62,914 bases of DNA from Candidatus Hydrogenedentota bacterium (GTDB lineage Bacteria; Hydrogenedentota; Hydrogenedentia; Hydrogenedentales; SLHB01), in assembly GCA_019695095.1 (NCBI GenBank), contig JAIBAQ010000013.1, forward strand, positions 1-62,914, given 5' to 3'. Positions 3,432 to 34,498 of this stretch are shown here, piece after piece. The position numbers and the translations under genes were made by a program. Numbering within the stretch: the stretch's first letter is position 1; each line of letters opens with the position of its first letter. The notes under the pieces were generated by a model. That model was given only the letters and a program-made list of their open reading frames with translations. It made no database searches and was not told the DNA's origin.

Positions 3432-3554
3432 GACCGATCCCCCCTGGTGCCGTTTGCGTGATATGAACGGGCGATACATATTGCCAGGGGCATTGTACGC
3501 GGCGAGGTAGAGGTGGATCACGCGGTCTCGATGAGGTGGTGGGAGGAACCACTT

Positions 3555-3660
3555 GCGTCCTTACAGGACGCTCGGTGGGAGGGGCTGGGTACCCGGGGTT
3601 TCGATTCGCGTTTGGGACGCGAATCTCACCCCGGGCTGGAGTATGCCGTGCCTACGGCAC
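3555..3660 (+). repeat. Triple-hairpin dispersed element, copy 1
   Basis: Three hairpins lie in tandem. The first is GCGTCCT-TAC-AGGACGC (3555-3571). The second is a long stem with outer arms CCCGGGGT/ACCCCGGG (3592-3599 with 3628-3635) and inner arms GATTCGCGT/ACGCGAATC (3603-3611 with 3617-3625). The third is TGCCGT-GCCT-ACGGCA (3644-3659). A second copy lies at 34264-34366. It sits in the gap between the GH36-like gene and the zinc-ribbon gene. Confidence 0.8.
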
Positions 3661-3740
3661 GAAGAGGGAATTGAAGAGCATTGCGCGCGGAGTCTGCGCG
3701 CGTGGATGGGTTGTGCAATGGAGGAGAAGGTTGTTTTTTT

Positions 3741-3782
3741 GCCAGAATCCTCGTCCGCCTGAGGCGGACTCGGAATGACAGG
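3741..3782 (+). repeat. 42-bp palindromic repeat, copy 1 (GAATGAC type)
   Basis: This 42-bp unit is identical to 4666-4707. Its core is the hairpin GTCCGCC-TGA-GGCGGAC (3753-3769), flanked by AATCCTC and TCGGAATGACAGG. The two copies are in direct orientation on either side of the zinc-ribbon gene. The rest of the 570-bp gap (3432-4001) holds the triple-hairpin element and no convincing gene. Confidence 0.85.
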
Positions 3783-4665: not shown

Positions 4666-4707
4666 GCCAGAATCCTCGTCCGCCTGAGGCGGACTCGGAA
4701 TGACAGG
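4666..4707 (+). repeat. 42-bp palindromic repeat, copy 2 (GAATGAC type)
   Basis: Identical over 42 bp to 3741-3782 and in the same orientation, 925 bp away. It lies in the 100-bp gap between the zinc-ribbon gene and the end of the convergent beta-helix gene. The hairpin could also act as a bidirectional terminator, but neither side has a T-run. Confidence 0.85.
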
Positions 4708-34114: not shown

Positions 34115-34498
34115 GATGACATCCCCTCTTGGTCTAGCCCGAAACATAACTCTACAAGAGTGGATCGGTTCAGTTCACGCGCGTTGCGCGATCTCGCGAA
34201 CGGAGACGTCGATGGATAACGAAGACGAGAACTCCTAAGAAACGGACGGTATACGTTGCTTTCGTCCTTACAGGACTCACGTTGGTTGGGGGCTGGAACC
34301 TGGGGTTTCGATTCGCGTCGTTGCCGCGAATCTCACCCCAGGCTGGAGTCTGCCGTGCCTACGGCACTCCAGAGAAGAGGCTGTCTGAGTAATTGCGAAC
34401 GAAGCACAGGGCATATTGCCCGATGCCTTGTGAAGGCTGCCCACTTGATCGTTGTTTCTAACATCAAAACCCGCGCTGGCGCGGTCCCCTGCTCGGAA
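34115..34498. other. Intergenic gap containing the triple-hairpin element
   Basis: This 384-bp gap lies between the repeat-domain gene start and the dCMP deaminase stop. Apart from the triple-hairpin copy I see no gene or clear promoter. Confidence 0.5.
34264..34366 (+). repeat. Triple-hairpin dispersed element, copy 2
   Basis: The same three hairpins appear as at 3555-3660. The first is GTCCT-TAC-AGGAC (34264-34276). The second has outer arms CCTGGGGT/ACCCCAGG (34299-34306 with 34335-34342) and inner arms GATTCGCG/CGCGAATC (34310-34317 with 34325-34332). The third is TGCCGT-GCCT-ACGGCA (34351-34366). The third outer pair is T-A here and C-G in copy 1, a compensatory change. Confidence 0.8.

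Follow-up and report, generated by a model that had tools for sequence, protein, structure and literature searches.

Among the systems described to date, those closest to the elements presented here pair a tyrosine transposase with inverted repeats. They include the RAYT/REP system (Nunvar 2010, PMC2817692; Bertels and Rainey 2011, PMC3116915; PMC8266576) and the TIRYTs, the latter being the nearest named idea (Di Nocera 2013, PMC3733652). In the published classification of the TnpA-Y1 proteins, subclass 1.2 contains members of ~148 amino acid residues with the motifs DH[IV]H, WQ, and Y---Q--HH (Table 1 of Quentin et al. 2018, PMC6006769). No REP is listed for this subclass, terminal structures are given as generally absent, and its members are found mostly in the Cyanobacteria and Bacteroidetes (PMC6006769). 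In the non-subscription literature searched, no later report giving subclass 1.2 a DNA partner was found.

The window, by which is meant the complete stretch of 62,914 nucleotides under analysis, derives from a member of the Hydrogenedentota with an assembly of 6.77 Mb in 405 contigs. It contains two elements, each very probably a dispersed and non-autonomous copy of a terminal arm from a RAYT-like TnpA-Y1 (HuH/tyrosine) transposase unit, three-hairpin and REP-like in character.

The Three-Hairpin Elements of the Window

The features of the window are listed in Table 1. The initial annotation had recognized the same order of three hairpins at two places, and this arrangement is indeed present at both, within the refined limits provided in the table. 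Each element is ~105 nt in length and opens with H1 (a 5-bp stem and a 3-nt loop), followed after ~22 nt by H2 and after a further ~12 nt by H3 (again 5 bp with a 3-nt loop). H2 is built from an 8-bp outer stem, a small internal loop, and an inner stem of 7-8 bp. In both copies it reads CC(T/C)GGGGT...ACCCC(A/G)GG around the inner stem GATTCGCG...CGCGAATC, and the C-G versus T-A difference on both sides of the outer stem, as originally described, exists in the sequences. The stem is likewise kept while the inner loops are unlike, namely GTCGTTGC versus GTTTGGGA. When folded as DNA, the element at 34264..34368 displays z-scores of -5.3 on the + strand and -6.8 on the - strand relative to dinucleotide shuffles. 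The corresponding values for 3557..3661 are -6.1 and -7.6, and none of the 200 shuffles folded as well as the window elements.

The element at 34264..34368 carries CTGG after H2 where its relatives have CTA, and the tag beside H2 in the window family is CCAG or CTAG rather than GTAG. Its 5' extension is common to many longer copies of the family, as judged from the majority profile of the left flanks of 56 copies. In most copies the downstream module is ~57 nt closer to the core than it is here, and in the longer copies of the window family it is usually positioned closer to the element. A weak match to the covariance model R1, described below, scores 13.4 bits and overlaps H3 in the inverted orientation (positions 34354-34437, - strand) and may represent a degenerate partner arm or chance.

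Table 1. Coordinates of the features identified in the window.
Feature	Positions	Strand	Details
Three-hairpin element, copy named in the initial annotation	34264..34368	+	R1 43.7 bits, E 5.1e-11, model 1-82/82; sequence; DNA fold
H1, small hairpin	34264..34276	+	GTCCT-TAC-AGGAC
H2	34299..34342	+	Outer stem CCTGGGGT/ACCCCAGG (34299-34306 with 34335-34342), inner stem GATTCGCG/CGCGAATC
H3, small hairpin	34355..34367	+	GTGCC-TAC-GGCAC
5' extension	34231..34263	+	TCCTAAGAAACGGACGGTATACGTTGCTTTC
Downstream repeat module	34467..34498	+	AAAACCCGCGCTGGCGCGGTCCCCTGCTCGGA; module R2, 93% identity
Three-hairpin element, second window copy	3557..3661	+	R1 41.2 bits, E 2.5e-10; sequence; DNA fold
H2 outer stem of the second copy	3592-3599 with 3628-3635	+	CCCGGGGT/ACCCCGGG
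Second dispersed palindromic repeat	3741..3780		GCCAGAATCCTCGTCCGCC...GGCGGACTCGGAATGACA

The second palindromic repeat occurs again at window positions 4666-4705 and has 47 matches in the genome. Its consensus is GCCAGATyCyTCGTCCGCC...GGCGGACTCrGrATGACA, with the compensatory variants TTCT/AGAA, TCCT/AGGA, TGCT/AGCA, TCCC/GGGA, and TTCC/GGAA and a constant TC/TC internal mismatch. Elsewhere in the genome it is often mosaic with the window family, many copies of which share longer flanks. The same two joints with this repeat, the left being ...GGCGGACTC^CTAAGAAACGGA and the right ...GCTC^AGGATGACA, are observed in ten longer copies (L013, L014, L017, L018, L020, L025, L028, L033, L043, and L049), the row for L044 being a false match. 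A nested insertion into the second repeat was considered as proof of movement and rejected. The right-hand module belongs to another repeat form, and thus an insertion is indistinguishable from composite amplification.

A Dispersed Family in the Window Genome

Both copies named in the initial annotation exist, but they belong to a far larger family. Its dispersal was revealed by blastn and by a scan of the genome with the H2 core pattern, which yielded 70 matches at two or fewer mismatches versus 5 for a reversed-pattern control. In all, 56 near-complete copies could be gathered into an alignment, a number that represents a lower bound. On the basis of a rough codon-usage gene call, 54 of the 56 lie in no predicted gene, even though coding sequence makes up ~70% of their surroundings. 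When the window element was compared by blastn with 60 relatives, matches were observed in its own genome only; the sequence of the family is specific to its lineage, and the relatives are reached solely through a structural model. At locus L052 (C225), direct and inverted three-hairpin copies alternate between positions 271 and 1411 with no transposase gene detected, and at ~2100-2210 a protein end can be read from the sequence with a PEP-CTERM-like sorting signal, VPEPASILLMGLGLGGFAWRARKK.

The variable pair in the outer stem of H2 is T-A in 39 of 42 aligned copies, C-G in one (3540-3669), T-G in one, and unpaired in one. The T-A pair is the family norm and C-G a single-copy variant, which reverses the direction of change, from C-G to T-A, that had been proposed. 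Across these 42 copies, 98.3% of the pair cells are paired versus 96.2% in shuffles. Two-sided changes among them number 27 versus 6.1 expected. Breaks are not as common as kept pairs, given that the 56 copies contain 61 compensatory cells as against 30 that are one-sided or broken (14 A.C, 4 G.T, and 12 other mismatches). The evidence from within the genome is nevertheless modest, because the compensatory cells are confined to five pairs and few events. Pairing within the family supports folding but by itself does not say what folds, and two copies from one repeat family could not alone have demonstrated selection on folding. The numbers of G.T and A.C cells, which are not independent events, give a hint of folding on the complementary strand.

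Transposase Genes of the Window Genome

Three genes were revealed when the genome was searched with Pfam Y1_Tnp. Diverged copies of the window family border the gene on C22 (L010) on either side in inverted orientation, the two arms sharing 67% identity over 116 nt. The C22 gene contains one in-frame TGA, and its HuH motif is DYVH where its relatives have DHVH; as assembled, it is accordingly a pseudogene. The window family has apparently been left without an enzyme of its own and is thus probably no longer mobile, unless it is acted on by the C43 enzyme or by a transposase copy missing from the assembly. The C43 gene is intact and is accompanied by its own arms, which are different from the window family. 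A second set of dispersed copies is closer to the C43 arms than to the window family. The third transposase (L011, C193) has unrelated flanking repeats (GCGCCGCGCTCGGCGAGCG) and presumably belongs to another subclass.

Three-Hairpin Arms in Other Phyla

Loci were sampled from related genomes, together with 80 named loci from many phyla; those represented include the Planctomycetota, Verrucomicrobiota, Acidobacteriota, Sumerlaeota, Bacteroidota, Calditrichota, and Fibrobacterota, among others. Most genes of this transposase group are bordered on both sides by inverted arms with the order H1-H2-H3. The layout of an arm is a small hairpin, ~24 nt, a larger hairpin ending in GGCTA, ~12 nt, and a second small hairpin. 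The median distance from the arm to the coding region is 23 nt on the start-codon side and 15 nt beyond the last codon. Some of the loci, such as L143 (Labilibaculum sp. K2S) and L176 (Flavipsychrobacter stenotrophus), belong to named strains and not to metagenome bins, and thus the arrangement is not a binning artefact. Locus L170, from Candidatus Hydrogenedentes UBA2224, matches relative G002, a member of the family to which the window genome belongs, with 100% identity over 2414 nt.

Without recourse to any model, inverted arms were detected at 61 of 92 loci versus 2.4% for mismatched loci. In 30-31% of the arms a stem of 7 bp or longer precedes CTA, the corresponding frequencies being 2% for control segments and 5-7% for the opposite strand. 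Each arm contains ~3 tight hairpins, whereas controls contain 1, and the full hairpin order is observed in 42 of 195 arms versus 17 of 1054 control segments. On the complementary strand, TAG precedes H2 in many relatives (30% versus 2%, strand-specific). The full GTAG occurs in a minority of the rows of alignment A3. Because the presence of CTA was a condition for selecting these rows, its invariance among them is partly by construction, a circumstance from which the model-free enrichment is free.

Alignment A3 is composed of 27 transposase-flanking arms from many phyla, with the window family excluded, and served as the source of the covariance model R1. One arm from the window genome, L009U of the C43 family, is included. 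In these 27 arms, 13 of the 17 pairs are changed on both sides. The two-sided cells number 75 versus 18.2 when shuffled, the covariation score is 0.481 versus 0.145, and every slid control collapses. Selection on folding across species is well supported, and it is this covariation between species that bears out the selection on a folded structure originally put forward. When R1 was run on the 63-kb window, the two elements were its top matches (Table 1), and the next scored 13.4 bits. Nearly all of the fetched genomic copies were recovered as well. At 58 loci outside the model, outward arms are present on both sides at 34 and on at least one side at 44, whereas the wrong (inward) orientation gave 7 and 6.

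Among 68 genomes of the order, R1 elements are present in all 43 that carry the transposase versus 12 of the 25 that do not (Fisher 1.7e-7, computed ignoring shared ancestry). The median is 38 elements per transposase-bearing genome among the matches listed (at most 57 each). Seven related genomes contain at least 10 elements each with no transposase detected, for which incomplete MAGs, loss, or another mover are possible reasons. In the related genomes, inverted arm pairs are separated by 30-53 nt, and 10 of 10 are oriented as around the gene, as expected of miniature elements.

The Transposase Subclass

The transposases associated with these arms are ~150 amino acid residues in length. The DH[IV]H motif is present in 89 of 102, WQ in all 102, and Y...Q..HH in 98, and the class 2 motif Y..NP occurs in none of them. 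Where present, the gene is found in 1-6 copies per genome. The nearest solved structures by sequence are 2a6m, 2vhg, 2fyx, and 2xm3. The signature formed by these motifs is the one published for TnpA-Y1 subclass 1.2. The arms contradict the published description of that subclass, not the protein assignment. Given that subclass 1.2 is recorded as lacking a REP, and yet these arms flank its genes, they look like its missing REP-like partner. Whereas the published classification left the subclass without a DNA partner, the arms supply a predicted substrate for each protein. Such a substrate can be ordered as an oligonucleotide, and thus the target of these domesticated-looking transposases is directly testable. 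The arms also account for a class of intergenic hairpins, common in the Hydrogenedentota, that otherwise resembles unknown structured RNAs.

Alternative Explanations and a Proposed Mechanism

Strong folding, covariation, and an intergenic position would also be displayed by a structured RNA, such as a riboregulator, a 3' UTR stabilizer, or a terminator-like element, under selection in transcripts. Indeed, 18 of the 43 classifiable copies lie between convergent genes, the GTAG-side strand would be the transcribed one in 12 of the 15 copies between co-directional genes, and known REPs can serve as RNA elements once spread (PMC3733652). We nonetheless regard this explanation as unlikely. The orientations of the flanking genes are mixed, a scan of the window with Rfam gave no family above the gathering threshold, and the preponderance of A.C over G.T among the one-sided changes, as read on the + strand, is contrary to the wobble tolerance of a + strand RNA. 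It would, in addition, be left unexplained why the arms border transposase genes in inverted orientation in many phyla.

It is less probable still that the compensatory pairs arose mainly through templated arm correction (quasipalindrome repair) rather than functional selection. Such correction is suggested by L028, L038, and L049, in which H2 is perfectly palindromic at several adjacent bases at once, across positions unpaired in the other aligned copies (GTTTCGATTCGCG with CGCGAATCGAAAC). It leaves unexplained, however, the order, the spacing, the CTA tag, and the outward orientation of the arms at the transposase genes of distant phyla. That the copies are dispersed, divergent, and intergenic, with inverted doublets, would fit an ordinary MITE or a degraded DDE-transposase insertion sequence having hairpins as by-products, but the gene between the inverted arms encodes a Y1 HuH transposase, and the hairpin order, not merely the ends, is kept across phyla. 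This last possibility is accordingly considered very improbable.

The data favor folded single-stranded DNA, recognized by the transposase, over RNA. Counting against the transposase-arm reading are the CCAG or CTAG tag of the window family, the broken state of its matching transposase, the limited likeness of the two arms at C22, and the seven genomes that contain elements with no transposase detected. By analogy with TnpA_REP and IS608, the arm would fold as single-stranded DNA at replication, the folding strand probably being that on which a TAG/GTAG-type tag precedes H2. The transposase would then recognize the hairpin set together with the tag on the TAG side and cleave beside it. Joining of the cleaved arm elsewhere would allow single arms or inverted pairs to spread into intergenic DNA. 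On balance, we favor the view that subclass 1.2 TnpA-Y1 proteins and three-hairpin arms constitute a separate, very widespread REP system, in which the whole ordered hairpin set, and not a single GTAG hairpin, would be the recognized end and inverted pairs would move as miniature elements in many phyla.

Comparison with Known Systems

With subclass 1.2 as published (PMC6006769), the proteins share a length of ~150 residues, the motifs DH[IV]H, WQ, and Y---Q--HH, a low copy number, and a C-terminal extension. The published subclass is generally without terminal structures, whereas most members studied here have three-hairpin arms. Its range is also wider here, extending to the Planctomycetota, Verrucomicrobiota, Acidobacteriota, Hydrogenedentota, Sumerlaeota, and others.

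In the IS200/IS605 family (IS608 and ISDra2, with TnpA of subclass 1.1), the transposases likewise act on folded single-stranded DNA ends. The arms described here, however, are long inverted structures with three hairpins, the genes are divergent and present in few copies, and the motifs are WQ and Y...Q..HH in place of W[TS] and Y[IV]ENQ. An insertion sequence of the IS200/IS605 family is characterized by several near-identical copies in a genome, as against the 1-6 gene copies counted here.

The TIRtrons (Di Nocera 2013, PMC3733652) resemble the units described here in having a Y1 transposase between long inverted repeats, with some families moderately abundant. The - strand of the window family contains GGGGTGAG, which fits the TIRYT motif GGGGWSAS given there. 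The TIRYTs are mostly of subclass 2.1 with a C-terminal HTH domain and a median length of 238 residues (PMC6006769), in contrast to the subclass 1.2 motifs and ~150 residues observed here, and in the accessible part of PMC3733652 their TIRs are not described as a conserved three-hairpin unit.

As in the RAYT/TnpA_REP loci, a low-copy Y1 HuH transposase gene is located between inverted palindromic repeats (PMC2817692, PMC3116915, PMC8266576), and each transposase has its own repeat family, as exemplified by C22 and C43. As with REPtrons, BIMEs, and REPINs, many dispersed intergenic copies occur singly or as inverted pairs. A REP unit, however, is one hairpin of 20-50 nt, whereas the unit here consists of three hairpins in fixed order over ~80-105 nt with the tag beside the middle one. 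The foot of a REP hairpin bears GT[AG]G; in the arms, TAG precedes H2 on the complementary strand in many relatives, with the full GTAG in a minority of the A3 rows and CCAG or CTAG in the window family. RAYT proteins carry the class 2 motif Y---NP rather than Y...Q..HH. The system thus resembles REP/RAYT in its arrangement and differs from it in both the repeat unit and the protein subclass.
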